The notes below the pieces were generated by a model. The model had not been told where the DNA came from, made no database searches, and was given only the letters and a program-made list of their open reading frames with translations. 24,877 bases of DNA from a virus: IMG/VR virus record IMGVR_UViG_3300032046_000209, positions 1 to 24,877 of that record. One strand, written 5' to 3'. How positions within the stretch are numbered: position 1 is the first letter of the stretch; every line of letters starts with the position of its first letter. A program made the translations under genes and the position numbers. Below are positions 1-13,674 of this stretch, piece by piece.

Positions 1-1
1 T

Positions 2-148
2 GGACTCCGGGGACAGGCGAATGCAACAATGGTTATATTCTGTCTGAAAAACAATTATAAGTGGGTTGATAAACAGGAATTTGAGGGTAAGATTCAGCAT
101 GATCCTTTCCTTGATCTCCTGAAGAAGGCAAATATTATTGATGACTAA
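2..148 (+). CDS. Probable terminase small subunit, C-terminal end only (5' partial)
   Basis: An open frame enters from the left edge and ends with TAA at 146-148, leaving 48 residues. The visible part reads ANATMVIFCLKNNYKW, then VDKQEFEG, then DPFLDLLK. From memory of the family, the pattern 'N-x-T-M-x-I-F-x-L-K-N' followed by an aromatic residue and 'DKQE' is common near the C-terminus of small terminase subunits with an N-terminal helix-turn-helix. That protein recognises the phage DNA and hands it to the large subunit. The large terminase begins at 2072, which fits, although small and large subunits are usually adjacent and here seven or eight small genes lie between them. The N-terminal DNA-binding part is outside the window, so the call rests on about 30 residues and context. 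Confidence 0.55.
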   Translation, partial: GLRGQANATMVIFCLKNNYKWVDKQEFEGKIQHDPFLDLLKKANIIDD

Positions 149-160
149 TTAAAAACTAAA
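146..160 (+). promoter_or_regulatory. A-rich translation leader, copy 1 (TAATTAAAAACTAAA)
   Basis: This 15-base sequence starts with a stop codon TAA and lies 4 bases before the ATG of the MGAP gene at 165. An identical copy (14644-14658) stands before the decoration gene. It likely acts as an A-rich ribosome-loading site in a genome with few Shine-Dalgarno sites. Confidence 0.4.
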
Positions 161-164
161 TGAC

Positions 165-380
165 ATGGGCGCACCAAGAGGAAATAAAAATGCGGCGGGC
201 AAGCGAGGAACGTCAAGGGGGGCAAAAAGGTTTTTGAATAATGCTTCAAAAATCTCACAACATTACGCATCAAATTCAGTATCAACCGGGGCGAAAATAC
301 ATCTCGGGACATTGGCCGGGAGGAAACAGTCAGGGTTGAAGGCTAAAAATGCCCGGTGGCTGAAAAGATTCAAAAAGTAA
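165..380 (+). CDS. MGAP-box small basic protein 1 (71 aa)
   Basis: First of seven tandem genes sharing the start MGAPxGN[K/R]NAxG. The protein has 18 Lys/Arg and no Asp or Glu, so it should bind nucleic acid or another acidic partner. Residues 1-14 are the conserved box. Residues 16-29 (TSRGAKRFLNNASK) recur almost intact in the C-terminal half of the protein at 1669 and in reduced form in the one at 900. The C-terminus (ARWLKRFKK) is again basic with spaced hydrophobics. There is no signal peptide, membrane segment or Cys. The start is A-rich (leader TAATTAAAAACTAAA at 146-160) with no Shine-Dalgarno site. The preceding stop is 16 bases upstream. A similar 'GAPKGNKNA' sequence is known to me from the N-termini of phage small terminase subunits; function here is unknown. 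Confidence 0.75.
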   Translation: MGAPRGNKNAAGKRGTSRGAKRFLNNASKISQHYASNSVSTGAKIHLGTLAGRKQSGLKAKNARWLKRFKK

Positions 381-391
381 AAATCAATATC

Positions 392-508
392 ATGGCAAAG
401 AAAAAAGAAAAAACGTCAAAAGAGCCAAAGGCAAAGGGCGGAAAAAAAATTAAGGTCAAAGGTTTGATATTCAAAGGCAAGTGGCCAAAAAAGGATTCAA
501 AGGGATAA
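392..508 (+). CDS. Lys-rich micro-protein within the MGAP array (38 aa)
   Basis: A short frame reading MAKKKEKTSKEP... and ending ...GKWPKKDSKG. About 40% of its residues are Lys, with no Arg. It lacks the MGAP box, so it is not a paralogue of its neighbours, yet it shares their basic character. It starts 11 bases after the previous stop, and its start context (AAAATCAATATCATGG) resembles those of the MGAP genes at 900 and 1066 (AAAATCATGG). Its stop lies 10 bases before the next MGAP gene, whose Shine-Dalgarno site (AAGGAGG) overlaps the stop. It is probably a real coupled gene, because otherwise this stretch would be the only sizeable hole in a very compact array. The composition is too simple to assign a family. 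Confidence 0.55.
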   Translation: MAKKKEKTSKEPKAKGGKKIKVKGLIFKGKWPKKDSKG

Positions 509-518
509 GGAGGTAATT

Positions 519-707
519 ATGGGAGCACCAATAGGAAATAAAAATGCGTCAGGGAAGCGACATTCAAGTTTCAAAAATGTTGGGGCGAAACTGAAAAACA
601 GGGCAGAATTTCGTAAACGCATGGCGTTGTTACAGTTTCACACCCGGGCAATCAGAAAAACAATGTTCTCACCAAGTTATATTAATAAATTATCAGGGAG
701 AAAATAA
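519..707 (+). CDS. MGAP-box small basic protein 2 (62 aa)
   Basis: Opens with MGAPIGNKNASGKR, then an amphipathic basic tail with one acidic residue (a Glu) against 16 Lys/Arg. The stretch from about residue 23 to 48 (KLKNRAEFRKRMALLQFHTRAIRK) could form a long basic helix. It has a textbook Shine-Dalgarno site, AAGGAGG ending 6 bases before ATG, unlike the A-rich starts of its upstream neighbours. Its stop TAA at 705-707 shares its last A with the ATG of the next gene, so the two are translationally coupled. There is no recognisable domain beyond the box. Function is unknown; binding to nucleic acid is inferred from charge only. Confidence 0.7.
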   Translation: MGAPIGNKNASGKRHSSFKNVGAKLKNRAEFRKRMALLQFHTRAIRKTMFSPSYINKLSGRK

Positions 708-886
708 TGGGAGCGCCAAGAGGGAACAAAAACGCATTAGGCAAACACCGGAGGCGGTCAACGTATCTCGGCAAGGGCGGAAAACTCTTGCATTCAACGA
801 CATACAAAGGTCAGTTGAAAGTGATTGCGGCATATACCCGCAAGATGCAAAAGTTGTATGGCAGGGATCGGAATAGTAATTCATAA
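707..886 (+). CDS. MGAP-box small basic protein 3 (59 aa)
   Basis: Start MGAPRGNKNALGKHRRR, 15 Lys/Arg and one Asp in 59 residues. The ATG at 707-709 overlaps the previous stop by one base (TAATG), with GGAG a few bases upstream. The tail after the box has a small Gly/Lys turn (GKGGK) and a possible helix (QLKVIAAYTRKMQKLY), and ends in a polar NSNS. It differs completely in tail sequence from the genes on either side, while the first 13 residues agree with them. A reverse-strand frame over the same bases lacks any ribosome-site or family support, and the box conservation decides in favour of the + strand. Confidence 0.7.
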   Translation: MGAPRGNKNALGKHRRRSTYLGKGGKLLHSTTYKGQLKVIAAYTRKMQKLYGRDRNSNS

Positions 887-899
887 AAATTGAAAAATC

Positions 900-1061
900 A
901 TGGGAGCACCAAAAGGAAACAGGAACGCAGCCGGAAAGAGAAGCGGGGTATCAAAAGGAGCATTGAAATACTTGGGATTAAGGGCGTATAAGACGACAAA
1001 TCTCAGGATAGCATCTCAAAAAAGAGCAATGAAAAAAAAGTGGTCATATCTTAATAAATAA
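900..1061 (+). CDS. MGAP-box small basic protein 4 (53 aa)
   Basis: Start MGAPKGNRNAAGKRSG, 15 Lys/Arg and no acidic residue in 53 residues, the shortest of the family. Residues 17-25 (VSKGALKYL) match the second motif of the proteins at 165 (TSRGAKRFL) and 1669 (TSMGARKFL), making it the closest tail relative of the first gene. The end AMKKKWSYLNK is basic with an aromatic pair. The start context is the A-rich AAAAATCATGG without Shine-Dalgarno. It starts 13 bases after the previous stop and ends 4 bases before the next start. Function is unknown. Confidence 0.7.
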   Translation: MGAPKGNRNAAGKRSGVSKGALKYLGLRAYKTTNLRIASQKRAMKKKWSYLNK

Positions 1062-1065
1062 AATC

Positions 1066-1458
1066 ATGGGAGCACCAAAAGGAAACAGGAACGCCGCCGG
1101 GAGGCATAATATGTCGGGCGGATACAGGAGAACAAATTCAAGTGGAGGCACTAATTTCAATGCCGGGACGGCAAGATGGAGGAGAATAGAACAGCCATTG
1201 AATAAATGGCAAAAAAGGGGAAGGCTGAGACAACAACTTGATCCTTATGAAGCATCCGGGAAAGGTGTTTGGCTGAATGAGCAGGCGAAAAAGACAGCCG
1301 GGCAATTGCGTAATGATATTCAGAGGGGAATAAAGATACAAACAAGAGGTGGAAAGATGGTCAGTCGGGGATTCAAACAGCGCACAAGAATAAAAAGTGG
1401 CCTTATGAAAACTAAGCAACGTCAACAAATTAACAGCCGAAGGGCGTATGGAGGATAG
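1066..1458 (+). CDS. MGAP-box basic protein 5, longest member (130 aa)
   Basis: Start MGAPKGNRNAAGRHNMSGG. The box DNA is almost identical to that of the gene at 900 for about 30 bases, then diverges. Residues 12-18 (GRHNMSG) resemble GKHNLTG in the protein at 1669, so these two form a second tail subgroup. The remainder is Gln/Arg/Lys-rich with only five acidic residues; two probable helices lie around LNKWQKRGRLRQQL and NEQAKKTAGQLRNDIQRG. It has a good A-rich start (AAATCATGG) 4 bases after the previous stop. Reverse-strand frames of 62 and 115 residues overlap it but have no family or start support. Function is unknown. Confidence 0.75.
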   Translation: MGAPKGNRNAAGRHNMSGGYRRTNSSGGTNFNAGTARWRRIEQPLNKWQKRGRLRQQLDPYEASGKGVWLNEQAKKTAGQLRNDIQRGIKIQTRGGKMVSRGFKQRTRIKSGLMKTKQRQQINSRRAYGG

Positions 1459-1462
1459 TATT

Positions 1463-1666
1463 ATGGGAGCACCAATGGGGAACAAGAATGCGTCAGGATC
1501 GCATCAGAAGGGTTGGTATAAGAGTTCCAACACTCACCACAACCTGAGAAGGCTGAGATCGCCTGAAGCAACGTGGACATTTCATGAGAAGCGCATGGCT
1601 CACCGGGCGAACAGAGCGCCAAAAGGGCAAAGTAATATCATTAAAAAATTCTTTGGAGGAAATTAA
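1463..1666 (+). CDS. MGAP-box small basic protein 6 (67 aa)
   Basis: MGAPMGNKNASGSHQKG starts at 1463. An in-frame ATG at 1448 would add five residues but overlaps the previous gene, and GGAGG at 1450-1454 lies at the right distance from 1463, so 1463 is chosen. The protein is rich in His (five) as well as Lys/Arg, with only two acidic residues. The tail reads KSSNTHHNLRRLRSPE and ends NIIKKFFGGN. The box departs from the other six at position 13, where Ser replaces Lys/Arg. The next gene follows after 2 bases with its own Shine-Dalgarno site. Function is unknown. Confidence 0.7.
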   Translation: MGAPMGNKNASGSHQKGWYKSSNTHHNLRRLRSPEATWTFHEKRMAHRANRAPKGQSNIIKKFFGGN

Positions 1667-1668
1667 CT

Positions 1669-1965
1669 ATGGGAGCACCGCACGGAAACAGAAATGCAGC
1701 CGGGAAACACAACCTCACCGGGGCACACAAGGGAGCAGCGCAGAAGCGTTGGAACTCAGGAGTGAAGAATGCTCAACAATGGATCAGGGACAACTCAGTA
1801 TCTCAGCCGGGGAGATATGCTTGGAGCACACCAAAACCAAGGTCAACATCCATGGGGGCAAGGAAATTTCTCCAACAGACGAGCGCCAAAGTTAGGGTGA
1901 AGCGGATCAAAACTGTTATGGGCAAGCGCCCTGAATTATTCAGGAAACTCCTATCAAAAGAATAG
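1669..1965 (+). CDS. MGAP-box basic protein 7, contains the second shared motif (98 aa)
   Basis: Last gene of the array. MGAPHGNRNAAGKHNLTGAHKGAAQKRW opens it. Residues 60-74 (TSMGARKFLQQTSAK) then repeat motif 2 of the first protein (TSRGAKRFLNNASK at its residues 16-29). In the first protein that motif sits right after the box, whereas here it follows a 45-residue insertion with two Trp (AQQWIRD, RYAWSTPK). This looks like modular rearrangement. Three acidic residues are present against many Lys/Arg. The Shine-Dalgarno site GGAGGAAATTAACT precedes the ATG. A different frame (1584-1895) crosses this gene but lacks the box. Function is unknown; the next gene is the large terminase. Confidence 0.75.
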   Translation: MGAPHGNRNAAGKHNLTGAHKGAAQKRWNSGVKNAQQWIRDNSVSQPGRYAWSTPKPRSTSMGARKFLQQTSAKVRVKRIKTVMGKRPELFRKLLSKE

Positions 1966-2071
1966 CATTGAAATACACAGCCGCCATGATACGTTCTTTT
2001 CATTTAGAACCTTTTTTCCATTTCAGGTTTGAGCATTTCCGATATTACAGTCATGGCGGCTACAATTTTAT
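1966..2071. other. Non-coding gap between MGAP array and large terminase
   Basis: 106 bases without a convincing gene. It contains the 11-bp inverted repeat (separate entry), a weak 5-bp hairpin (GTTCT 1993-1997 with AGAAC 2006-2010) followed by CTTTTTTCC, and no Bacteroidota-type promoter pair. Phage packaging sites often lie near the terminase genes, so this is the best candidate in the window for a packaging or regulatory site. Confidence 0.35.
1979..2061. repeat. Perfect 11-bp inverted repeat flanking a 61-base spacer, upstream of the large terminase gene
   Basis: AGCCGCCATGA at 1979-1989 is the exact reverse complement of TCATGGCGGCT at 2051-2061. The 61-base spacer is pyrimidine-rich on this strand. 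The right arm ends 10 bases before the terminase ATG at 2072, and no convincing gene occupies 1966-2071. It could fold in the mRNA as a long-loop hairpin in front of the terminase start, or act as a DNA site such as a packaging or protein-binding site. The function is inferred; only the repeat is seen. Confidence 0.55.
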
Positions 2072-3592
2072 ATGTCAGAGAAAGGCCGCATAAAATTACT
2101 CGAGCGTTGGGAGCGGGATTGGAATCTCTTTGCAACCGAGGCGCTGAATGTTCGGCTTGATCCTGAGCAACAGGAGATATTGGCGGCTGTTCAGACACAA
2201 AAGATGGTTGCGGTGGCTTCCGGGACAGCAAGAGGAAAGGATTATGTTGCGGCAGTTGCCGCACTTTGTTTTATGTACCTCACACCAAAATGGGGCAGAA
2301 AATCGGGAGCACTGATTGAGAATACAAAAGTTGCAATGACAGCGCCAACAGGGAGGCAAGTTTCAAATATTATGTACCCGGAAATAGTCAGATTATTCCG
2401 TAATGCTTCAATCCCTCTCTCCGGGCGTCTCGTCTCAAATGACATCCGAACTGAATATGAAGAATGGTTCTTAACAGGGTTCAAGGCTGATGATTATAAT
2501 ATAGAGGCTTGGACAGGATTCCATGCCGTCAATACAATGTTCATAGTTACAGAGGCTTCCGGGATCAGCGAATTAGTTTGGGATGCCATTGAAGGAAACT
2601 TGCAATCGAATTCAAAAATATTGATCGTATTTAACCCGAATAACATGGTCGGCTATGCGGCCAAGGCAATGCGCTCCTCCCGTTGGAAGTCTTTCCGGTT
2701 GGATGATCTGACAGCGCCAAATGTTCTTCAGAAGAAAAAAATATTTCCCGGGCAGGTAGATTATGAATGGGTCAAGGATAAGGTTGAAACTTGGTGTGCT
2801 CCCATACAGGAGGATGACTTCAGGGATGACAAGGGAGATTTTGAGTGGGAAGGTGGTTTATTTCGTCCCAATGACCTTTTCAGGGTCAAGGTAAGGGGAA
2901 TGTTCCCGGAAGTATCTGAGGACGTCCTGATCCCTTATTTATGGATCGAGGCGGCAAATCAAAGATGGGCAGAGAGAAGGCTTGATAATCTCAAGGGTTA
3001 TCGCCGGATCGGGGTTGATGTGGCCGGGATGGGACGGGACAGTTCAGTTCTTTGCCATAGGTTCACAGATTTTGTCCTGAAATTTGAAGCGCATCAGTCG
3101 GGAGGAGAAGCGGATCACATGAAAATCGCCGGGATGGTTCATAATTATCTCCATAAGTCAAAGGAGGCCGTTGCAATGATTGACACAATCGGGGAAGGGG
3201 CGGGAGTATTCTCGAGGCTTCAGGAACTCAATATGAGCAATGCCTTCAGTTGTAAGTATAGCGAGTCGGCTCAATACTTAAATGACTATACCGGGGAATA
3301 TGAGTTTGTAAATATGAAGGCATATCTTTATTGGGCAGTCAGGGATTGGCTCAACCCGGCATTTGGGTCAGAGGCTTGTCTCCCCCCTCTCCCGGAACTT
3401 ATTGCCGAAGCCATTGAGATCAAATATGCCTTTCAGAGCAGCGGCAAGATAATAATTGAGCCAAAAGAGAAAACAAAGGAACGTCTTGGGCGCTCCCCGG
3501 ACTTCTTTGATGCTCTTGCAAATACGTTTTATCCCGTTGAGGCATTGAAGAAAGGGATGAAAATAACAGAACTGAGTGGAATGTTACCGTAA
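2072..3592 (+). CDS. terL: Terminase large subunit (506 aa)
   Basis: The packaging motor's ATPase and nuclease. It drives DNA into the prohead through the portal and cuts the concatemer. Length is normal for the family. The ATPase half has a degenerate Walker A, A49-S-G-T-A-R-G-K-D57, where GKD replaces the usual GK[S/T]. The hydrophobic Walker B strand reads FIVTE (157-161), with Thr where Asp is usual before the catalytic Glu161, followed by ASGIS and the coupling segment IVFNPNN. The nuclease half starts with the RNase-H-fold strand GVDVAGMGRD (D316). D371 (AMIDTIGEG) and D477/D480 (SPDFFDAL) are the other probable metal ligands. The start at 2072 has no Shine-Dalgarno site, in keeping with Bacteroidota starts. 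The portal follows after 18 bases. Confidence 0.92.
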   Translation: MSEKGRIKLLERWERDWNLFATEALNVRLDPEQQEILAAVQTQKMVAVASGTARGKDYVAAVAALCFMYLTPKWGRKSGALIENTKVAMTAPTGRQVSNIMYPEIVRLFRNASIPLSGRLVSNDIRTEYEEWFLTGFKADDYNIEAWTGFHAVNTMFIVTEASGISELVWDAIEGNLQSNSKILIVFNPNNMVGYAAKAMRSSRWKSFRLDDLTAPNVLQKKKIFPGQVDYEWVKDKVETWCAPIQEDDFRDDKGDFEWEGGLFRPNDLFRVKVRGMFPEVSEDVLIPYLWIEAANQRWAERRLDNLKGYRRIGVDVAGMGRDSSVLCHRFTDFVLKFEAHQSGGEADHMKIAGMVHNYLHKSKEAVAMIDTIGEGAGVFSRLQELNMSNAFSCKYSESAQYLNDYTGEYEFVNMKAYLYWAVRDWLNPAFGSEACLPPLPELIAEAIEIKYAFQSSGKIIIEPKEKTKERLGRSPDFFDALANTFYPVEALKKGMKITELSGMLP

Positions 3593-3610
3593 TTTAATAA
3601 ATTTGCAGTC

Positions 3611-5155
3611 ATGGACATAATCAAATTGACAGAACTCATTGCGGGCAATGACTTCGCCAAGATACAGGTTGCCTTCACAAGCGCCAAGCCAAAATTCAAG
3701 GTCGAACAGCCGGAGGCGATCAAGCAATATAAGACATCCGAGCATGATATTTTTGACACGACAAAAAGGGCGGATAAGACAATCAAGAAAGACACAGGGA
3801 CAACAAACGAGGCGGGAGAGCCTGTTCTTGCAACAGCATCAGTTCCGGTTGCCCGGGTTGGAATGCCATTTCAAAAACTGATTGTTGACCGCCGGGTTGG
3901 ATTCATGCTCTCTGATCCTATTCAGACAAAAGTTGAGGACGGGGATGATAGCACACAGGAGAAGGAACTTGTGAAGCTGATCAATCGCATTCAGAATGAG
4001 AACAAAATGGATTACAAGAATAAAGAGATCGCCCGGAGAATGATGAGCGAAATGGAGTCTTGTGAGATATGGTATTTTGTTCCAAATGAGAACCCGTCAA
4101 TTGAAGCCAAGTTCATCCTGAAAGTAAAAGTGGCCTCTCCTGATCTCGGGGACAGTTTGTATCCGATGTTTGATGCAACAGGAGATATGATTGCCTTTGC
4201 CCGGAGTTATAAAGTAAGTGAAGAAGGGAAGGACATTGAGCACTTTGATATTTACCTCGCCGAATCGGAATATTATTGGATAATGGATGCTTCGGGGAAG
4301 TGGGTTCTCGATCCTCTGATAACGCCAAACCCGAAACCAAATCAGGTCAAGAAAATCATGGTTATCTATTATTCACAGCTTTATCCCGAATGGGCGGATG
4401 TTCAAACAATGATCTCAAGGCTCGAAACAATTGTTTCAAATCATGCCGATGTGAATGATTATTTTGGCTCTCCAATACTGACAGTTATCGGGGAATTGGC
4501 CGGGTATGCTCAGAAGGGTGAAACAGGCAAGATATTACAACTCACTCAGGGATCACAGGCCAATTATCTCGCACTTGCAACAGAGCCTATGTCAATACGT
4601 ATGGAGCAGGAGAACCTTGAGGGGTATATTTATGCAATGAGTCAGACGCCGAATATCACATTTGATCAGATGAAGGGACTCGGAGCACTCTCCGGGGTCG
4701 CACTGAAATTACTGTTCATGGATGCTCACATGGCGGTGAAGAACAAGGAGGAGACGTTTGGCTTGGGACTGCAAAGGAGGCTGAACTTATTGAAGGCTTC
4801 CGCCGGGATGGTTGTCAACACTTCACTTGCAAAGATCGCCGAGGTAACACAACTCAAACCATTATTAACGCCATTTCTTCCGCAAAATATCACCGAGTCA
4901 ATTGATAATATCGCCGCTTCAATCAATGCCGGAATCATGTCAAAAGAGACAGCGCTTGAAAATCACCCGATGATAGTTGATGTTGAGAGCGAACTTGAAA
5001 GATTGGCAAAGGATCAGGAGGAGGCAATGACGGCAATGCAAACACAGGCCGGATTAGAGCAGGGAGCAGGATTTCAGGGCGGGGAGACAGGAGCAACGAA
5101 TGAGCAGGGAGGCTCGCAAACCCCGGCGGAAGCAGGAGCACAAACAGGAGAATAA
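3611..5155 (+). CDS. Portal protein, SPP1 gp6-like (514 aa)
   Basis: It forms the dodecameric ring at one capsid vertex through which the terminase pumps DNA and to which the neck attaches. Length and order (directly after the large terminase) fit. Residues 79-100 (PVARVGMPFQKLIVDRRVGFML) match the characteristic early helix of SPP1-gp6-type portals as I know them. The long helical, Gln/Glu-rich region around residues 335-450 and a low-complexity Gly/Glu/Ala/Thr tail (from about residue 465) are also typical. Part of the central domain is acidic. The start is the first ATG, 18 bases after the terminase stop. A TAAATTTG sequence just upstream looks promoter-like but has no partner -33 box. Confidence 0.9.
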   Translation: MDIIKLTELIAGNDFAKIQVAFTSAKPKFKVEQPEAIKQYKTSEHDIFDTTKRADKTIKKDTGTTNEAGEPVLATASVPVARVGMPFQKLIVDRRVGFMLSDPIQTKVEDGDDSTQEKELVKLINRIQNENKMDYKNKEIARRMMSEMESCEIWYFVPNENPSIEAKFILKVKVASPDLGDSLYPMFDATGDMIAFARSYKVSEEGKDIEHFDIYLAESEYYWIMDASGKWVLDPLITPNPKPNQVKKIMVIYYSQLYPEWADVQTMISRLETIVSNHADVNDYFGSPILTVIGELAGYAQKGETGKILQLTQGSQANYLALATEPMSIRMEQENLEGYIYAMSQTPNITFDQMKGLGALSGVALKLLFMDAHMAVKNKEETFGLGLQRRLNLLKASAGMVVNTSLAKIAEVTQLKPLLTPFLPQNITESIDNIAASINAGIMSKETALENHPMIVDVESELERLAKDQEEAMTAMQTQAGLEQGAGFQGGETGATNEQGGSQTPAEAGAQTGE

Positions 5156-5183: not shown

Positions 5184-6176
5184 ATGATCAGAATTTTATC
5201 TATTACACCAAGCGTCACTGATGCCTGTTCCTTTTACAGGAGCGGCGGCATCTTCCCTCATTTGGAAAAAATGATTGACAACCTTGTTGTTCATCATGTT
5301 CAATGGGACAGGACATTACTACATTGGCAAGAGTTGATCCGCTATGATCTTGTCTATATGCAAAGGCCATTTGAAAGTCAGGCTGTATCTCTTTCAAAAT
5401 ACCTGAAGAATTTACGGATTCCCCTTTGGGTTGATTTTGATGACAATCTTTTGGCTCTCACTCCTGATAACGAAAAATACAGGCTTTATGATGATAAGGT
5501 CAGGGAATATATTGTTCAGGTAATGCAAAACGCAGATGTTGTTACAGTTACAACGGCGGAACTTCAGAGACAGTTTCAGCAATACAACAAAGATGTCCGG
5601 GTGATACCGAATGCGTTCAATGATTTCATCTTCAAAGAGCGGATGATCCGCCCGGGAAGGGCGCAGATGATCATGTGGCGAGGAGGAAATTCCCATATCA
5701 AAGATGTCATGTTGTTCACCGAGGTATTTGAGAAGGCTATGGCTGAATACAAAGATTGGCATTTCTTGTTCATGGGTATGGAGACATGGTTCTTGAACGG
5801 ATCAATGAATCTTTATGAATGGCCTGCCAAAGATGTGATCCATTATTTCACGAATGTCAAGGAGATTCTTCCGGCTCTCCTGACTGTTCCTTTGAATGAT
5901 ACAATATTTAACCGTTGCAAGAGTAACATAGCATATATCGAGGCATCTTATTTTGGTGCAATGACTCTTGCGCCCGCATGGGAGGAATGGAAAGATTTGC
6001 CCGGGATTCTTACTTATACCGATCCGGCTTCCTTCCTTGAGGGGATCAGGACGGTTGCAGCCGTGCGTATCAATCCCGCTGAACAGGGATTGCTCGCATG
6101 GAATTATGTCAGGGAGAACCTTGGTCTGAAGAAGATCAACGTCAAGAGGATCGAACTCATAAACGAACTTTTATGA
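5184..6176 (+). CDS. GT-B-type glycosyltransferase (GT4-like, 330 aa)
   Basis: First gene of the carbohydrate island. It probably moves a sugar from a nucleotide donor to an acceptor in the cytoplasm. The N-terminus ILSITPSVTDACSFYR followed by GGIFPHLEK is typical of group-1 glycosyltransferases that start by locating a donor-acceptor cleft. WVDFDDN (82-88) is the acidic loop often seen in this group. The domain junction contains ADVVTVTT, then VIPNAFND, which is the classic link into the donor-binding Rossmann domain. At 330 residues it is somewhat short for a GT-B protein (usually 350-400), so the C-terminal domain may be compact. The stop overlaps the next ATG (ATGA). Donor and acceptor cannot be read from the sequence. 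Confidence 0.8.
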   Translation: MIRILSITPSVTDACSFYRSGGIFPHLEKMIDNLVVHHVQWDRTLLHWQELIRYDLVYMQRPFESQAVSLSKYLKNLRIPLWVDFDDNLLALTPDNEKYRLYDDKVREYIVQVMQNADVVTVTTAELQRQFQQYNKDVRVIPNAFNDFIFKERMIRPGRAQMIMWRGGNSHIKDVMLFTEVFEKAMAEYKDWHFLFMGMETWFLNGSMNLYEWPAKDVIHYFTNVKEILPALLTVPLNDTIFNRCKSNIAYIEASYFGAMTLAPAWEEWKDLPGILTYTDPASFLEGIRTVAAVRINPAEQGLLAWNYVRENLGLKKINVKRIELINELL

Positions 6177-6451
6177 ACCTGATAGCCAATATTGGAAGCG
6201 GCAAGACCGCCCGGAAAGAGATGCGTCAGGCTCTCGCTCAGGCAAAAGAACCTGTTAAACCTCCCGAACCTGTCAGGGTCAGACCGTCATTTGCGGCAAT
6301 AATGACTCAATTCATGTTTGGTATGTCTCAAGGTGGGGCAAAGAATCCTTCCTCTGAACATAGCCGCATCCCGGGACACAAATCAAAGAAGTTCAAGGGG
6401 TATGACCGTGAGAACCGAAGATTCAACTCATTCAAAAAGAGAATAAGATGA
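6173..6451 (+). CDS. Small basic protein of unknown function within the sugar island (92 aa)
   Basis: The start at 6173 is chosen because it forms an ATGA overlap with the preceding stop; the same frame continues upstream to 6098 but only inside the glycosyltransferase. The protein begins MNLIANIGSGKTARKEMRQAL, has a Pro-rich middle (KPPEPVRVRP), a short hydrophobic patch (FAAIMTQFMFGM) and a Lys/Arg-rich end (KSKKFKGYDRENRRFNSFKKRIR). I do not recognise it. The IANIGSGKT stretch fits the loose Walker A pattern, but the protein is far too small to be a P-loop ATPase. Its stop overlaps the next gene's ATG, so it is coupled to the two glycosyltransferases around it. A linker, adaptor or acceptor role is possible. 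Confidence 0.65.
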   Translation: MNLIANIGSGKTARKEMRQALAQAKEPVKPPEPVRVRPSFAAIMTQFMFGMSQGGAKNPSSEHSRIPGHKSKKFKGYDRENRRFNSFKKRIR

Positions 6452-7710
6452 ACGAGCGGATCAAGGTATTTATAACCGTTTTCAATCGCTTCACTTGGTT
6501 AATCCCGTTGCTTGAAGATTTCAAAAAAGCGGGGTGTGATCCGATTCTGATTGACAACAATTCAACGTATCCGCCGCTCTTGGATTGGTACAAAACTTGT
6601 TCATTACCTGTTCATTTCTTGGGGAAAAACCATCTCGCATGGGCGTTCTTCACAACTGAACTTTATAAATTATATGATGATCGCTATTTTATTATCTCTG
6701 ACAGTGATATGGATATTTCAAAAGTGCCGGATGATTTTGTTGACGTCCTGTTCCGGGGATTAGAGAATTCCGGGGGACGTATTTGGAAATGCGCCCTCGG
6801 TTATGAGTTGGATGATCTTCCTGTTAATGCGGTCACTCAGGCGGCTTATTCTGCAAACATAGCACAGGAATCAAACAGGAATGAGCAGGGATATTCCCGT
6901 TGCGCCACTGATCTCGGGATTGCCCTGTATGACCGTTCACGCCGGGGATCAAACCCGACAAGAGAGTCGGATTGGTATGACAGTCTCAGAGCGCCACGGC
7001 CATATTATTGCCGACACTTGGATTGGTACATGACGCCTGAAACGCTCAGGGATGAGGATCGGTACTATTTGAAGGAGGCAAGGTATTTCTCATATTTAGC
7101 CTTGATGAATGAGAAGATGAACCCCTTTCCTATACGGAATCAATGGGGATACTCTCAAAAGACGCTCATGGAACTCTTTCAGGAGGGCGGTGAGGCAAGA
7201 TACCACACAGATAAGCAGACTCAGCATTCGTATCTCCCAATCTATGATAAGTTGTTTATGCCATGGAAGGAGAAGGACTGCAAAGTGTTCGAATGCGGGT
7301 TCGCCTCCGGGGGATTCCTCAAACTCATGGAAGATTACTTTGACAAGGCTGAAATACTCGGGATTGATAAGATCGGCGATTTGATGAAAGAGGTTATGGG
7401 GGTCAATACCTCAAAGAGAGTCAGAACGGTTAAATTGGAACTCAAGGAATTGAACAAAGGGTTTTTTGAGTCCCTTGAATTTATCCCGGACATAGCCATT
7501 GATGACAGTTCTCATGTTATTGAAGATCAATTGACATTTGTAAATGTAATGTGGGATATTGTGAAACCCGGGGGGTTGATAATTATCGAAGATGTGTTGA
7601 AAACAAATGTAAATGAATTTCTCAGGCTTGGACTTCAGTATGAGGTTGTTGACCTGAGTGATGACCGCCCCGGACAATTAGATAATATTTTAATAATATT
7701 CAAAAGATGA
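6448..7710 (+). CDS. Fusion: GT-A glycosyltransferase domain + SAM-dependent methyltransferase (420 aa)
   Basis: Two domains in one chain. Residues 1 to about 230 look like a GT-A glycosyltransferase: an initial beta strand (KVFITVFNRF), then PILIDNNST, and the metal-binding DSDMD at 85-89. Residues from about 255 look like a class I methyltransferase of the sugar O-methyltransferase (CmcI-like) type: HSYLPIYDKLF, the SAM loop FECGFASGG (281-289), GIDK, the acidic pair DDSSH (352-356), and PGGLIIIEDV (374-383), whose ED is a likely metal ligand. The expected activity is adding a sugar and methylating it or a neighbouring sugar. ATGA overlaps on both sides couple it to neighbours. There is no sign of a frameshift; the linker (about 230-255) is in frame. 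Substrates are unknown. Confidence 0.8.
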   Translation: MNERIKVFITVFNRFTWLIPLLEDFKKAGCDPILIDNNSTYPPLLDWYKTCSLPVHFLGKNHLAWAFFTTELYKLYDDRYFIISDSDMDISKVPDDFVDVLFRGLENSGGRIWKCALGYELDDLPVNAVTQAAYSANIAQESNRNEQGYSRCATDLGIALYDRSRRGSNPTRESDWYDSLRAPRPYYCRHLDWYMTPETLRDEDRYYLKEARYFSYLALMNEKMNPFPIRNQWGYSQKTLMELFQEGGEARYHTDKQTQHSYLPIYDKLFMPWKEKDCKVFECGFASGGFLKLMEDYFDKAEILGIDKIGDLMKEVMGVNTSKRVRTVKLELKELNKGFFESLEFIPDIAIDDSSHVIEDQLTFVNVMWDIVKPGGLIIIEDVLKTNVNEFLRLGLQYEVVDLSDDRPGQLDNILIIFKR

Positions 7711-8780
7711 CAAAAACAACGCCACTGATAAGACCTGAATGGAATTACAAAGAACTCCATCAGGAGACATGGAAGAATAAGGAAGTTACAATTGTAATGT
7801 GTGAAAGAGACACGGCTGACGTGACAAAACTTGGTATTGAATCAATACTGAGATTTTATCCTGACATCCCGATTGTTATTGTGGACGGCGGATCGGTTGA
7901 TGACTCAATCAATTATGTGAGATATTTAGATGTCGCCCATGAGAACGTGACTCTTTGGGAAAGGTATGGGCGCAATGGGCACGGGACAATGTTGGATGAT
8001 GCCATATTGAAATTTGTCAAGACAAAATATGTTCTTGTAATGGATAATGACATCATTGTCCGCCGGGGCGGTTGGATTGAGCAGATGTTGATCACAATGA
8101 ACGTATCAGGGGCACTTGATCAGGAGATATATGCTCTCGGGTCGCTCATGCTTGTGACATACAAGGGAGATGGTTGCGGCGATCCGGTTGATGATAGTGA
8201 TGTTCTCAGATACACGCATCCTTCTTGTGCAATGGTACGACTCGAGACCTACTTGCAGCTTCCCGCCTTCGTTGAGCATGGCGCACCGCTTGTTCATAAC
8301 ATGAAAGCCGCTCAGGATAAAGGATACAGGATTGAATACTTTCCGATTGAGGAATACGTCACGCATTTGTCAGGAGCATCTTGGACGAATCCTTACAGGA
8401 CAATGTGGAAAGATGATCAGGATGTTTTCATCAGGCCGTTCTTCACTTTTATTGCCCGGGATGTCAATGACCTGATCTTGCTTCAAAGACAGAACGACAA
8501 AGATTTTGAGATATTACTCGCCGGGACAAGAGGGTATGCTCAGATTCATGTATTCAATATTGGACAAAAAGATGTCAGCAATGATTTGTATCCGCTGAGA
8601 TTTCATGTTCATGGCGAATACATTTGTGAGTTGGCTCATATCTCCTATGCCTTTGATGATAATCACCTGTTAAATGTGAAATATCAACTCATACAGAACA
8701 AACTCCCTGAGGAGATGGACATTAATGGAATGAAATTTATAAAAAGAAAGTTATGGCAGAGCAGAGAAGCAATATCGTAG
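7707..8780 (+). CDS. GT2-like glycosyltransferase (357 aa)
   Basis: A GT-A-fold glycosyltransferase, probably family 2. The early strand VTIVMCERD, then IPIVIVDGGSVDDS, and the metal-binding DND at residues 113-115 (YVLVMDND) are in the expected order and spacing. GGWIEQML follows as in family 2 enzymes. The first 230 or so residues form the catalytic domain. The C-terminal 120 residues (from about 240) have no motif I recognise and may bind the acceptor. The ATG overlaps the upstream stop by four bases and its own end overlaps the next gene by 28 bases. There is no membrane segment, so it acts in the cytoplasm. Confidence 0.82.
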   Translation: MTKTTPLIRPEWNYKELHQETWKNKEVTIVMCERDTADVTKLGIESILRFYPDIPIVIVDGGSVDDSINYVRYLDVAHENVTLWERYGRNGHGTMLDDAILKFVKTKYVLVMDNDIIVRRGGWIEQMLITMNVSGALDQEIYALGSLMLVTYKGDGCGDPVDDSDVLRYTHPSCAMVRLETYLQLPAFVEHGAPLVHNMKAAQDKGYRIEYFPIEEYVTHLSGASWTNPYRTMWKDDQDVFIRPFFTFIARDVNDLILLQRQNDKDFEILLAGTRGYAQIHVFNIGQKDVSNDLYPLRFHVHGEYICELAHISYAFDDNHLLNVKYQLIQNKLPEEMDINGMKFIKRKLWQSREAIS

Positions 8781-9430
8781 GCTTTATTCATGTTTGCATG
8801 ATCAATGATTGGAAGTCAATCATATCCGAACAGATAAATATCATGCAAGAGAGCGGACTTTATGATTACATGAGGGTCGCCAATGTTTGTTGCCTTGGAA
8901 GTGAATATGACAAGGAGGAACTTGAGAAATTAATTGAGCCTTTCGGGAAGCTGAGGCTCGCAGCATATTCGCCCGATTTGAACGCATTCGAGTTCTTTAC
9001 TCTCGCATTCATGAAAGATGTTTGCAACAGGAGTCAGGGTTTTTATGGGTTTTATATCCATACCAAGGGAGTTAGTTGGCCGGGTCATGAGGGAGGCAAG
9101 TATTGGAGGGATTATATGAATCATTATATCCTCAGGAAATGGATGCTTGACGTCCGCTTCCTCAATATCGGATATGACCTTTGCGGAGTGAAGCTGATCA
9201 ATAAGGGTTGGCCACTTCATTACTCCGGGAACTTCTTTTGGTTCAATGCGGAGTATGTTAGCAGGGTGATCCCGGTGAATATGATGAACAGGAAGGATCG
9301 CTTTAATGCCGAGATGTGGGTATGCTCAGGGACTCCAATAGCCGCAACATTATGTCAGGATTTTGTTGATTATGACACAAAAGGAATATTCAATCCCAAT
9401 GAAAAAGCAGTTCCAAATGGTTTGCTCTAA
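8753..9430 (+). CDS. Glycan-modifying protein with IHTKG...HYSGNFFW signature (225 aa)
   Basis: This belongs to the family of bacterial and phage proteins, often annotated as glycosyltransferase-like or rhamnan-synthesis-related, with the signature YIHTKG (101-106), then W-R-x-x-M (118-122), CGVKL and HYSGNFFW (156-163). All are present in order. The family is found beside glycosyltransferases in capsule and O-antigen loci and in phage islands; its chemistry is not well established to my knowledge. The ATG at 8753 overlaps the upstream gene by 28 bases, and no later Met before residue 16 would preserve the first strand (NIVGFIHVCMINDW). Its 3' end overlaps the zinc-ribbon gene by 32 bases. 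Confidence 0.72.
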   Translation: MAEQRSNIVGFIHVCMINDWKSIISEQINIMQESGLYDYMRVANVCCLGSEYDKEELEKLIEPFGKLRLAAYSPDLNAFEFFTLAFMKDVCNRSQGFYGFYIHTKGVSWPGHEGGKYWRDYMNHYILRKWMLDVRFLNIGYDLCGVKLINKGWPLHYSGNFFWFNAEYVSRVIPVNMMNRKDRFNAEMWVCSGTPIAATLCQDFVDYDTKGIFNPNEKAVPNGLL

Positions 9431-9512
9431 GTGCGGGACTGCATTTCAGGGGAAGGTTCTGATTGTGCATAATGTACTTTGTAAAAAATGTCGGAAACAA
9501 ATTAGAAAATGA
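9399..9512 (+). CDS. Cys4 zinc-ribbon micro-protein (37 aa)
   Basis: A 37-residue frame, MKKQFQMVCSKCGTAFQGK..., with two CxxC knuckles at C9/C12 and C28/C31. That spacing fits a minimal zinc ribbon. Net charge is strongly positive (Lys/Arg-rich). It overlaps the upstream gene by 32 bases, and its stop overlaps the next ATG (ATGA at 9509-9512), the coupling style of the whole island. It also covers the only gap between the two larger genes, which supports it as a real gene. It may bind DNA or RNA or act as a small cofactor; no function is shown. Confidence 0.65.
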   Translation: MKKQFQMVCSKCGTAFQGKVLIVHNVLCKKCRKQIRK

Positions 9513-10030
9513 AAACAATAAACAGAAATTGGATTCAGGTTATTTTGATAATATTGGTTTTTGTAATTACTATAATAATCGGACGCACCTGCTCTGGTCA
9601 GGTATCATTCAACCAAAAACTCGGGTTCGCTCCAATAGGCGGCCTGAAGGGATTCGTTGGCGCTGAACTTCAAGGATCAAACGTATCCATAATCGCTGAG
9701 TGGAGACCTGTCAGTCTTGACAGGTATGTTTATGTAAATGGGTTTGTCTTGGGAGCGACATTCTATTTATGGCCATATCAAACATCCCCGTTCTTTTCAA
9801 TGAAGATAATCACACATGGGAATTATAACCCGGATGAGATAACAGGTTTGCCAATAAGAACAATGCCGATAATATTGGGGATGAGAATATACCCGAATCA
9901 GTACAACGACAATATAATTGACAGGCTCTCCTTTGACATTGCCGGAGGAATAGAACTGACCCGGGATGCGAGAGTTGAGCCTTATGCCGAAATAACAGGA
10001 AACTTTATTTTATTCAAATCAAAGAGATGA
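9509..10030 (+). CDS. Secreted beta-rich, outer-membrane-like protein (173 aa)
   Basis: The N-terminus is MKTINRNWIQ, then a hydrophobic run (residues 9-24: IQVILIILVFVITIII), then GRTCSGQ, consistent with a Sec signal peptide or single membrane anchor; a true lipobox is not evident. The remaining 140 or so residues alternate polar and hydrophobic positions with Gly and aromatics (GLKGFVGAEL, VSIIAEWRP, GFVLGATFYLWPY, LSFDIAGGIEL, VEPYAEITGNFILF), as in small outer-membrane beta-barrels of Bacteroidota. It is the only exported protein in this late operon. Host envelope modification or exclusion of other phages is a possible role (inference). It is coupled by ATGA to both neighbours. Confidence 0.6.
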   Translation: MKTINRNWIQVILIILVFVITIIIGRTCSGQVSFNQKLGFAPIGGLKGFVGAELQGSNVSIIAEWRPVSLDRYVYVNGFVLGATFYLWPYQTSPFFSMKIITHGNYNPDEITGLPIRTMPIILGMRIYPNQYNDNIIDRLSFDIAGGIELTRDARVEPYAEITGNFILFKSKR

Positions 10031-10827
10031 GAAATTTATGCTTCACGCTTGCTTATAATTTACCTTCCGAAACCGAGAAGGTGACAAAATTGCTATATGA
10101 GCAGAATCAACCCGGGACATTCGAGCATACAATATTTGATCTCGGATTCCCACTTGTTATGGGAGATGAAGTCCCAAAAAGTCTCGAGGGTGCAAAGAAA
10201 ATCAACTCGAGCAAACTTATTGAGTTGGCTGCCCGGTATGGATCAAATTATGCCCTCATGGAAAACATTGGTGTCTCACAAAATTGGACGCAGGCATATC
10301 AATACCTGAAGCCTGAGAACACTGATGTCCTGATCGGTTGTGATCCCGATGAGCATCCGTTGAATATCGGATGGGTTGAGAAGATGGGAAACGCCATCAG
10401 GCAAGGGGACTTTGGGTTAGCCTCATTAATGATGACTGACCATGTTGATATTGTAAGGGACTTCCCAAAATCAGAAATGTGGTTCGGGGGCGCAAGGGTT
10501 TATATTTTCCCGGGACAGGCACTCAATTGGGCACTTATTGGCCTGAGCGGGAGACTCCTGAATATAATCAAAGAGATACCATACCCGCCTAAGGCTCAGA
10601 GATATGGTTGGATCGAGGGAAGCCTTGCCCCAAAGATTACCGAGGCCGGGATGAGATGTTGTATTTTGCCGGATTATAAGGTGAGACATACCGATTTTGA
10701 ACTCGGTGATCCCGGGACTTCTTCACTCCTGAGGGAATGGAAAAATCAAATCATCTTTAATATTCATCAGTATGGTCAGATGTCGTTTGACTCGTTCCTA
10801 ATGATGAGAAAGGAGGGAAGGATATGA
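10027..10827 (+). CDS. GT-A-type glycosyltransferase (266 aa)
   Basis: A small GT-A-like protein. LCFTLAYNLPSETEKVTKLLYEQ is the first strand and helix. IGCDPDEHP holds the likely metal motif DPDE (106-109) after a hydrophobic strand (DVLIGCD). Later GWIEGSLAPKITEAGMRCCILPDYKVRHTD (from about residue 198) resembles the acceptor-side and final metal-contacting region, with His near the end. At 266 residues it is close to the minimum for this fold. It overlaps both neighbours by ATGA. The sugar and acceptor are unknown. Confidence is moderate because only the DxD-like motif and order support the fold. Confidence 0.68.
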   Translation: MRNLCFTLAYNLPSETEKVTKLLYEQNQPGTFEHTIFDLGFPLVMGDEVPKSLEGAKKINSSKLIELAARYGSNYALMENIGVSQNWTQAYQYLKPENTDVLIGCDPDEHPLNIGWVEKMGNAIRQGDFGLASLMMTDHVDIVRDFPKSEMWFGGARVYIFPGQALNWALIGLSGRLLNIIKEIPYPPKAQRYGWIEGSLAPKITEAGMRCCILPDYKVRHTDFELGDPGTSSLLREWKNQIIFNIHQYGQMSFDSFLMMRKEGRI

Positions 10828-11762
10828 AGAAGATACTCATTACGGGAGCGGCAGGATTTATCGGGAGCAATATCGCCCGGGCGCTAAACTTTGAATACGG
10901 ATACGGGGTTGTCGGGGTTGACGACCTCTCCTTTGGTGATATGGCAAATGTTCCAAAAGGAATCGAGTTCTATGAGCAGGGGTTCGAGACGTTGGGGGAC
11001 TGCAATGAGTATGATGTTATCATTCATTGTGCAACATCAAACATCATATATGCCATGGATCATCCCGTGGAAACATTCAGGAATAATGCGCACAATACGG
11101 TTGAGTTCTTCAGGAAAAACCAAATGCCGAAGATCATCTATACTTCAACCTCATCCGTTTATGGGAATGCCGAACAGATACCAACACCCGAGGATGCTGA
11201 ATTAAAAAGTTCAAATTCGTATGACATCTCCAAGCGGATCGCTGAGGTATTTCTTCAACAAAGAGGGAATTATACAACCTTCAGATTGTCAAATGTATAT
11301 GGAAACAAACAGCTTGCTTCAAATCCATATTGTGGGGTTATCGGGAAACTTGTATTTGCAAACTTGAACAAATCAATCTTTAACATATATGGAAATGGGG
11401 AATGTACCAGAGATTATACATTTATCTCGGATGTGGTTGAAGCTGTCAAGAAGGCAGTGGCGCTTCCGGGGTTACAGACTGAGGTCAATATTGGGACGGG
11501 GGTTGAGACTTCTATCATTGCTTTATATCGCTTGGTTCAAAATATAACGGGTAGTATGCAATTGCTTTCTGACAACCCTCCCCGGAAGATTGACAAGATC
11601 ACCCGGAGAAAACTTGACATTCGTAAGGCAGCACAACTACTTGATTGGAAGCCGACAATCACAATTGAAGAAGGACTAAAACGAACAATTGATTGGTATG
11701 CCGAACACCTCGATAACATTCAGAAACAAGTTTCTGTACCGTCAGGCAGCATTCCTCAATAA
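10824..11762 (+). CDS. NAD-dependent nucleotide-sugar epimerase/dehydratase (extended SDR, 312 aa)
   Basis: It makes or interconverts an activated sugar, supplying the glycosyltransferases upstream. The N-terminus KKILITGAAGFIGSN carries the GxxGxxG NAD loop (8-14). YTSTSSVYG (106-114) is the strand holding the active-site Ser/Thr, and Y133-D-I-S-K137 is the YxxxK catalytic pair. RLSNVYG and DYTFISDVVEA match the UDP-glucose 4-epimerase / dTDP-glucose 4,6-dehydratase group. The position that is Ser in E. coli GalE appears as Thr109, which is acceptable. Length is normal (310-340). The exact reaction cannot be told from motifs alone. The 3' end overlaps the next gene by 65 bases, unusually long here. 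Confidence 0.85.
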   Translation: MKKILITGAAGFIGSNIARALNFEYGYGVVGVDDLSFGDMANVPKGIEFYEQGFETLGDCNEYDVIIHCATSNIIYAMDHPVETFRNNAHNTVEFFRKNQMPKIIYTSTSSVYGNAEQIPTPEDAELKSSNSYDISKRIAEVFLQQRGNYTTFRLSNVYGNKQLASNPYCGVIGKLVFANLNKSIFNIYGNGECTRDYTFISDVVEAVKKAVALPGLQTEVNIGTGVETSIIALYRLVQNITGSMQLLSDNPPRKIDKITRRKLDIRKAAQLLDWKPTITIEEGLKRTIDWYAEHLDNIQKQVSVPSGSIPQ

Positions 11763-13674
11763 GTACGAAAAACTTTTTGGGAAGGTTGCTGATGACGTTG
11801 CGGCGCTGAAAGATAATCCCTCGGCACGGTTTGTCAAGTCTTTTGACTTCACGAAGGCCAAACCTATCAATGTCGGCATGGGAAACCTGATGGTTGATTT
11901 CAAGGCAAAAAGTTTCAACCTGATCCGGGATGCTCAAATGGCTTCTGCCGGGGTCAGTTTCCTCAAGAATAATGAGATCACCGGGAAATATATTGAGACA
12001 ATTGGCAAACTCGGGAAGGACTTTCAGAAGGAAGGCTATATCCCAAACATCAATTCAATCATGGCATTTGTCGCCCGGGAGCGCCCGTCAGATAACTTGT
12101 CGAGTGCCGTTTGGCAAATAGGGGATCAACTCAGGGCGGAGATGGAGATACAGCTTGGACTCGGCATAATGAACGGGGACTCACCCGCAACAATAAGCAG
12201 AAGGATCAGGAAATACCTCAACAATCCAACGGCACTATTCCGCAAGATCAAGGATAAGGATGGGAGACTCGTCCCGGGGATCAAGGAGAGAATGTATCAT
12301 CCCGGGCGAGGGGTTTATAAATCGGCATACAAGAACGCCATGCGACTCACCCGGACTGAGACAACTCAGGCTTATCTCTTGGCGGATCACTTTCGTTGGC
12401 TGAATGAGCCATTTGTGATCGGGGTCAGGATCAGCCTCTCGGGTGCTCATCCTGCTTATCCTTTCCCTGAGATATGTGAAGTCTTGGCAGGGGATTATCC
12501 GAAGTGGTTCATTTGGGTTGGTTGGCATCCTCATTGTCTCTGTAATGCAGTCCCCATCATGATCCCCCGGGATGACTTTCGTGCCATGCTCCGGGGAGAG
12601 AAGCCTATGAGTGCTCAGATGATTGACGTCATGCCTGAGAAGTTTACCAAATGGGTTGAGTACAACAGGGGAAGGATTGAGAAGGCAAAGTCTCCTCCAT
12701 ATTTCATTTTGGATAACTACAAGAACGGTCAGGTTGCAAGCGGATTGATACGTCCGGGGATTCCTGCTCCGGTTATTCCTCCTCCCGCTCCCAAAGTTGC
12801 TCAGACATTTGGAGACATACACCTTCAGGCAATGATGGACGCCACGACAGTACAGGAGACAAATCAGAGAGCAGCCATCTTGCTCGGGACTGACGTATTC
12901 TCTCATAAGATCACGCATCTCGAGACGCTAAAATTGGCATACAACAGGCTTTTTGAACTTCAGAAGGAGTTCAAGGTCTTGCGGATTCCGACAATTGGGG
13001 ATGAGAAGCGGAAGAATGTTTGGGCGTCAGCAAATTGGGGGTCATTCAATATGGCAGCAAAATATTTCAATGATCCCAAGACATTTGCCGAGAGCCTTGT
13101 GAGATCAGTCAAAACGAAGTTTCACCCGGTTGGTTGCGACACAATCAAATCGGTTATTGATCATGAGTTCGGCCATATCCTTACAACGTACCCGCTGTTT
13201 TATTCAAAATTCACCCCGGGAACATTGGCAGCGCAAAAACCTGAAATGATGGAATTTGTCAACGCCATCCGGCCGCTCGAGCGCAAGTACAAACTTGAGA
13301 TGACGGGGTATGTCAGGAAGATCAATAAGATCATCATGAAGGAAGCGCCGAAAATTGATGACGGTTGGGACGGGGCGTCTGCTTACAGCGCTCTCAAGCC
13401 GTCAACAAAACTGAAATGGTATGAAAAACAATGGCTCAAGCACGGTCAGGACTTGCTTGCCAAAGAGGTGAACGGGTCACTCCTGTCACCAACGGCCAAG
13501 AGTCAGATACTCGAGATTATCCGGCAGTTTGAGGCCACAAAAATCAGTGTTTACTCAACGGATAAAATTGATGAGTTCATTGCTGAGGGGTTCACCTCGG
13601 CAATCAATAACCCGGGAGGGAATTTGTATGCGACAGAGATAATGAGACTAATCAGAAAAATGCAAGGGGTATGA
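11698..13674 (+). CDS. MuF-type minor head protein fused to an HExxH (metallopeptidase-like) C-terminal domain (658 aa)
   Basis: The N-terminal part is an SPP1 gp7 / Mu gpF-like head morphogenesis protein, which binds the portal and enters the capsid in small numbers. RLTRTETTQAY (R219-T220-E221) and WHPHCLC (276-282) are the diagnostic blocks. A Pro-rich linker (about 350-366) leads to a second domain with HEFGH (H489, E490, H493) and a later EFIAEGF (E626-F632) that could give a third zinc ligand. From the literature, MuF proteins in temperate phages often carry C-terminal toxin or enzyme domains; a zincin-like one is the reading here. ATG 11698 is chosen over a TTG at 11689, and FRNKFLYRQAAFLNKYEK directly after it looks like the authentic start. 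It overlaps the epimerase by 65 bases. Confidence 0.82.
   Translation: MPNTSITFRNKFLYRQAAFLNKYEKLFGKVADDVAALKDNPSARFVKSFDFTKAKPINVGMGNLMVDFKAKSFNLIRDAQMASAGVSFLKNNEITGKYIETIGKLGKDFQKEGYIPNINSIMAFVARERPSDNLSSAVWQIGDQLRAEMEIQLGLGIMNGDSPATISRRIRKYLNNPTALFRKIKDKDGRLVPGIKERMYHPGRGVYKSAYKNAMRLTRTETTQAYLLADHFRWLNEPFVIGVRISLSGAHPAYPFPEICEVLAGDYPKWFIWVGWHPHCLCNAVPIMIPRDDFRAMLRGEKPMSAQMIDVMPEKFTKWVEYNRGRIEKAKSPPYFILDNYKNGQVASGLIRPGIPAPVIPPPAPKVAQTFGDIHLQAMMDATTVQETNQRAAILLGTDVFSHKITHLETLKLAYNRLFELQKEFKVLRIPTIGDEKRKNVWASANWGSFNMAAKYFNDPKTFAESLVRSVKTKFHPVGCDTIKSVIDHEFGHILTTYPLFYSKFTPGTLAAQKPEMMEFVNAIRPLERKYKLEMTGYVRKINKIIMKEAPKIDDGWDGASAYSALKPSTKLKWYEKQWLKHGQDLLAKEVNGSLLSPTAKSQILEIIRQFEATKISVYSTDKIDEFIAEGFTSAINNPGGNLYATEIMRLIRKMQGV

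Follow-up and report, generated by a model that had tools for sequence, protein, structure and literature searches.

Seven genes with a common head between the terminase genes

The window, by which we mean the whole stretch of DNA analyzed, covers all 24,877 bases of a complete IMG/VR virus record, and all contigs with which we compared it are uncultured fragments. It opens with the C-terminal end of a small terminase subunit gene (TerS; 2–148, plus strand), truncated at the window edge; the fragment matches PHROG 309 and GP3_package weakly, and is assigned to TerS because the intact copy in a sister contig (L003) scores above the Pfam GP3_package cut-off (36.3 vs. 29.4 bits). The large subunit gene (TerL; PHROG 2, E 1.6e–32) follows at 2072–3592 on the same strand. 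Between the two, at 165–1965, ORF listing and sequence reveal an array of seven close-set ORFs (genes 1–7), all ATG-started and all on the plus strand, whose products open with the same head, MGAPxGN[K/R]NAxG. An earlier sequence-only reading of this DNA had reported seven genes with this head (at 165, 519, 707, 900, 1066, 1463 and 1669), lying between the terminase genes; all are present, and the flanking assignments agree.

Gene 1 (165–380, 71 aa) encodes, after the head box, two copies of a second box, SxGA (213–236 and 282–305), and shows dS-only change relative to L003. Gene 2 (519–707, 62 aa) has the tail HSSFKNVGAK, the start of which recurs in another phage (L085), and overlaps gene 3 (707–886, 59 aa; dN/dS 0.11–0.14), whose start lies on the gene 2 stop codon (TAATG, 705–709). 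Gene 4 (900–1061, 53 aa; SxGA box at 951–974) is a cassette missing in L002 and L003, while gene 5 (1066–1458, 130 aa) is mostly replaced in L003 and has a TAG at codon 17 in L002. Gene 6 (1463–1666, 67 aa, ATG at 1463) has dN/dS of 0.02–0.05 vs. L002 and L003, and gene 7 (1669–1965, 98 aa) has an SxGA box at 1849–1872, beyond which its tail is exchanged relative to L002 and L003. The other neighboring genes are 2–13 bases apart, with the exception of genes 1 and 2, separated by 138 bases that contain an additional small basic gene lacking the head (392–508, plus strand, 38 aa, beginning MAKKKEKTSKEP); a homologue occupies the same place in L004, and this eighth gene adds to the seven first reported.

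Between the array and terL lies an inverted repeat (1979–2061, plus strand) with 12-bp arms at 1979–1990 and 2050–2061. Its folding z-score is –5.8 in the window and –4.0 in L004, where alignment shows the outer stem retained and the loop diverged; it could be an RNA processing or stability element, or a packaging site. No Rfam RNA elements were found. Further downstream, genes for glycosyltransferase-like proteins and sugar epimerases are inserted over about 6.5 kb (5184–11762) between the portal gene and a MuF-type minor head protein gene, and may serve to glycosylate the virion.

Protein-level conservation and composition

The pattern ATGGGNGCNCCNNNNGGNAAYARRAAYGCN, a degenerate form of MGAPxGN[KR]NA, matched the window seven times, at the seven genes, and had no match in 100 shuffles. 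Over 18 sequences from several phages the invariant head residues are M1, G2, A3, P4, G6, N7, N9, A10 and G12, and the tails are divergent. The seven heads differ from one another at 0.08, 0.15 and 0.52 per site at codon positions 1, 2 and 3; of the 168 codon comparisons at invariant residues, 81 show a difference, every one silent. Comparing array genes with their orthologues in L002, L003 and L004, tails included, gave either dN/dS of 0–0.33 or saturated synonymous change with the protein conserved, the latter for genes 2 and 3 vs. L004. Because of these silent third-position differences in the heads and the low dN/dS among orthologues, we conclude that the array genes are translated and selected as proteins. 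Chance or untranslated frames are ruled out by the lack of shuffle matches together with the substitution pattern, and the 81 silent codon differences disfavor a DNA function (as a pac or recombination site) as the main cause of head conservation.

The array proteins have pI values of 11.4–12.0 and net charges of +0.16 to +0.28 per residue, compared with –0.05 to +0.04 for the other window proteins examined. Each has 0–5 acidic residues (none in those encoded at 165 and 900), and Asp and Glu are missing from the first 14 residues of every one; the charge computation thus agrees with the earlier description of extremely basic, nearly acid-free proteins. A charge-hydropathy plot places all seven on its disordered side, and structure models of two members were of low confidence (pLDDT 61–63). 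Such composition fits nucleic-acid binding.

Searches of the array proteins against PHROGs, Pfam and NCBIfam assigned no family above cut-off. Weak matches were seen for gene 5 (PHROG 222, 'Neck1', E 0.009) and gene 1 (PHROG 1889, E 0.056). Pfam matched none of the TerS domains (GP3_package, DUF5681, PF10668) in the array proteins, and the family searches matched no MuF-type domain; a sequence search of PDB gave nothing convincing, the array-type proteins tried against cultured phages had no relative there, and a literature search with the box sequence returned no paper.

Tail modules and cassette turnover

The tails had been described as unrelated, and this must be qualified. For many of them it does not hold: of 18 tails from array and related proteins, 9 contain the second box, SxGA[KRL]x[FYH]L (residue shuffling predicts 0.001), several array tails can be aligned beyond it, and modules are shared; otherwise the tails are indeed divergent. 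The second box directly follows the head in genes 1 and 4 and in L004 and L100, and lies further in for gene 7 (residues 61–68) and L082. Genes 2 and 3 can be aligned over 32 residues around a degenerate copy (z 4.8), and the last module of gene 7 (VMGKRPEL...) is also found in a non-orthologous gene of L004.

Near relatives of the window differ in their arrays. L003 (the same contig as L097, below) is 97–98% identical to the window over about 10 kb, with the breaks in homology located in the array: homology stops at 934, where the gene 4 head ends, and resumes at 1460, at the gene 6 head; it is lost a second time at 1872, where the SxGA box of gene 7 ends, and returns at 1971, past that gene's stop codon. 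L002 (~97% identical around the array) joins 697–934 directly to 1060–1872, with gene 4 missing via a head-to-head junction, and its last tail is the L003 version. The window, L002 and L003 thus present three cassette combinations in three contigs, with junctions at box edges, for which chimeric assembly of any one contig cannot account. Since both versions have the boxes, the exchange points can be placed only at or next to them. L004, whose TerL is 89% identical, has its orthologues of genes 2 and 3 in reversed order, and additional small basic genes. Among phages that are otherwise nearly identical, array genes have been lost, acquired or given new tails, which suggests a swappable protein set loaded with the viral DNA, much as the internal proteins of T4 are; the comparisons also strengthen the original description of a conserved head with variable basic tails. 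Invertible cassettes of the shufflon type were rejected, there being no inverted repeats of at least 18 nt in window positions 1–2100 and the head repeats being direct.

Two of the array heads are 98% identical in DNA over 41 nt, and repeated head DNA could by itself drive unequal recombination, with gene gain and loss that is functionless, i.e., a neutral or selfish expansion. The TAG codon in one L002 gene and the absence of another gene from L002 and L003 would suit such an account. It is at odds with the purifying selection seen on heads and tails alike (dN/dS 0.02–0.14 for genes 3 and 6 vs. near relatives) and with the conservation of the proteins of genes 2 and 3 against L004 at saturated synonymous change; because of this substitution pattern we already disfavor it, and give it very little chance.

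Distribution of the head box

The head pattern was found in 31 stretches among 2.9 million viral contigs (18 when the trailing Gly was required), and once in the genome collection, in a Paenibacillus TerS. It occurs on TerS-type proteins in several forms. In L090 and L116 the box precedes a GP3_package domain; many TerS-type head-box proteins of 85–110 aa weakly resemble DUF5681, the start of which the head box itself resembles; and in L117 (Paenibacillus TerS) three box copies follow an N-terminal PF10668 domain. These cases uphold the earlier suggestion that the box is related to TerS N-termini. Elsewhere it heads single small polybasic genes, situated among capsid and neck genes in L099, L100, L085 and L115 and after TerL in L113. 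The contig end of L085 (4041–4190) appears foreign and adapter-like when its translation is inspected by eye, leaving ~35 usable residues of its head-box gene. The box further occurs after the portal gene in L107, in an apparent head segment in L112 and beside an apparent HTH in L114.

The array itself is limited to one narrow clade (the window, L002, L003, L004 and L082), and no head-box array was found in 70 further relatives of the window TerL, where TerS normally abuts TerL. Given this distribution and the 70 array-free relatives, we take the array to be a feature of that clade and the head not to be terminase-specific. The sequence-only reading had named terminase among the possible docking partners of the head; single-copy genes beside capsid and neck genes (L099, L100, L115) carry the box outside a terminase context, the very finding it had named as telling against its idea, and a docking role confined to terminase is not supported.

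Within the clade, all five array contigs have the order TerS, array, TerL. L082 (1–1852) reads TerS C-terminus, head-box gene, 240-codon ORF (with weak PLD-like similarity), small basic gene and second head-box gene, after which a second TerS-like gene (PHROG 606, E 6.6e–5) precedes TerL. The TerS proteins of the window (GP3_package) and L004 (DUF5681), of different families, have nearly the same C-terminal peptide, EFEGKIQHDPFLDLLKKANI (window 68–148, L004 4390–4470), presumably a TerL-contacting tail.

The placement in five of five array contigs, the L113 gene after TerL, the box on three kinds of TerS and the second TerS-like gene of L082 would all be expected if the head were a TerS-type DNA arm and the array proteins were packaging cofactors, that is, accessory factors acting at the packaging start site or the motor, outside the virion. 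Yet near-identical TerL proteins are paired with different cassette sets, the 70 related TerLs function without an array, the L099, L100 and L115 genes lie beside capsid and neck genes and not beside terminase, and seven distinct cofactors for one motor are hard to motivate. A cofactor role therefore strikes us as unlikely, if deserving of serious weight.

In TerS the box is found together with DNA-binding domains, and in L114 next to an apparent HTH; with the extreme basicity and predicted disorder of the array proteins, and a cassette turnover typical for counter-defence genes, this would also accommodate intracellular nucleic-acid binders (late regulators, RNA or nucleoid binders, defence inhibitors) made from the late operon, not targeted to the particle, and using the head as a DNA or RNA arm. 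We think this distinctly unlikely: the placement within the packaging and head segment is constant across different phages, and co-expression with terminase would be late for counter-defence unless the proteins were carried in the virion.

A second head and effector-like genes

The sister contig (L097) has, at 1982–3922, three consecutive genes upstream of TerS with a common basic head of another kind, MANRK, extended in two of them as MANRKVVGVRxNVRIR. Two MANRK-headed genes occur in L004 (2364–3788), and a scan with the extended head matched in L097 and L004 only. The first L097 gene encodes an ADP-ribosyltransferase (Pfam ART, E 1.4e–11; ADPrib_exo_Tox, 6.9e–10), whose relatives in cultured Pseudomonas phages form the C-terminal portions of proteins annotated as minor head proteins; it would thus belong to a class of effectors that are loaded elsewhere as head-protein fusions. 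The other two L097 genes, with HExxH motifs and no Pfam match, encode putative metallopeptidases. The third of the L097 genes has a 44%-identical relative in the Bacteroides phage Versailles, consistent with a Bacteroidota host. Versailles has no array, and its gene order is a DUF4417-like gene, the HExxH gene, a small acidic gene, a probable TerS gene and then TerL. With tblastn, gene 7 matched the Versailles HExxH protein (43% over 37 aa, E 0.004), too weakly to be used. The MuF-type minor head protein of the window (11689–13674) has a long C-terminal extension that carries an HEFGH motif and may be a loaded peptidase effector.

Possible loading of the array proteins into the capsid

The reading we tentatively prefer, at somewhat less than an even chance, is that the array proteins would resemble the T4 internal proteins, bearing a tag, binding DNA and entering the capsid. 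The array would be a series of interchangeable late-gene cassettes for small, probably DNA-binding, polybasic proteins; the MGAPxGNxNAxG head would act as a common tag that brings them to the head-assembly machinery or to DNA undergoing packaging, and the tagged proteins would end up, along with the genome, inside the capsid. The tails, made of an SxGA box, a basic helix and a variable segment, would do specific work, either neutralizing or organizing DNA or acting against host defences once injected, and new tails would be gained by recombination between the repeated boxes. The logic would be that of the T-even internal proteins, with one short N-terminal tag and many small basic bodies. DNA binding, virion entry, injection and tail function are the steps that we infer; for the head, we would argue that DNA contact is at least part of its job, because of the extreme basicity and the association of the box with TerS DNA-binding proteins. 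What we count in favor of capsid loading is the common head, the protein-level selection, the turnover, the head and packaging placement and the extreme basicity. Also in its favor are the single-copy relatives situated among capsid and neck genes or after TerL, the tail module common to gene 7 and an L004 gene, the MANRK-headed enzymes of the sister contig together with the head-protein relatives of their transferase, and the T-even precedent for a single tag on many small basic bodies.

Several observations weigh against it. The head is also on TerS, which is unexpected in a mature virion; the T4 internal proteins are mildly basic and acid-rich, unlike the array; several array members are conserved under purifying selection and not fast-changing; and the models of two members are of low confidence. 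Moreover, the head has no acidic residue, and apart from a weak match to PHROG 595 within the MuF-type protein, no separate prohead protease turned up among the head genes scanned.

A broader proposal takes in the second head: the clade may use short basic N-terminal tags, MGAPxGN for a recombining set of protamine-like, DNA-bound proteins and MANRK for host-modifying enzymes (the ADP-ribosyltransferase and the HExxH peptidases), as capsid-loading signals, forming a non-T4 system of injected proteins that would have signals of its own and an array that swaps cassettes. This we hold to be speculative and somewhat improbable. Were the head a loading tag, it would supply a searchable signature of capsid-entering proteins in phages unrelated to T4, as well as natural cases of body swapping behind a fixed tag; it would account for tiny polybasic genes of head modules that usually go unannotated, and would offer a 12-residue handle for bringing proteins into such capsids.

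Comparison with known systems

The internal proteins of T-even phages, the nearest system described, are basic, have in common an N-terminal capsid targeting sequence of 10–19 residues, differ from one relative to another and, once injected, inhibit restriction enzymes; the ADP-ribosyltransferase Alt is also packaged (PMC9026906, PMC3012670, PMC12373910). IPI, IPII and IPIII, like the array proteins, have small basic bodies behind a short common N-terminal tag, several per phage, in sets that vary between close relatives (here the window, L002 and L003, at ~97% identity), and the packaged Alt has a possible counterpart in the ADP-ribosyltransferase of the sister contig. The differences are substantial. 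The T4 tag is MKTYQEFI or MKTFKEFT, not MGAPxGN; the T4 proteins carry +0.02 to +0.05 charge per residue and are rich in acidic residues, the array charge being about five-fold higher; T-even bodies are mildly basic and folded, whereas array bodies are on the disordered side, with model pLDDT of 61–63; and T4 processing uses an acidic residue, of which the array head has none. The array is also one contiguous block between TerS and TerL, unlike the T-even internal protein genes. Because the tests of tag and composition fail and the acidic cleavage residue is lacking, we say that the array may work like the T-even system, not that it is one.

The same GAPxGNxNAxG occurs on TerS proteins (GP3_package, PF16677; DUF5681, PF18932; Phage_terminase, PF10668) in L090, L116 and L117; the array proteins differ in having short polybasic tails in place of a TerS domain.

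Fusion to MuF proteins is another known way of loading effectors, and these fused effectors or polyvalent proteins resemble the array in placing variable parts behind a common loading module within the head cluster (PMC5512222, PMC5576092). As in MuF-effector systems, the window MuF-type protein has a C-terminal HExxH and the sister contig a related type of ADP-ribosyltransferase. Unlike MuF effectors, the array proteins have short stand-alone heads with no MuF domain, and their polybasic tails are non-enzymatic.

The array proteins also bear a resemblance, in extreme basicity and small size, to another class of viral protein. Viral protamine-like core proteins, e.g., baculovirus P6.9 and the adenovirus core proteins, are very small, strongly basic and probably disordered. 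The array differs from these in presenting several distinct proteins under one head, and in a tailed phage.
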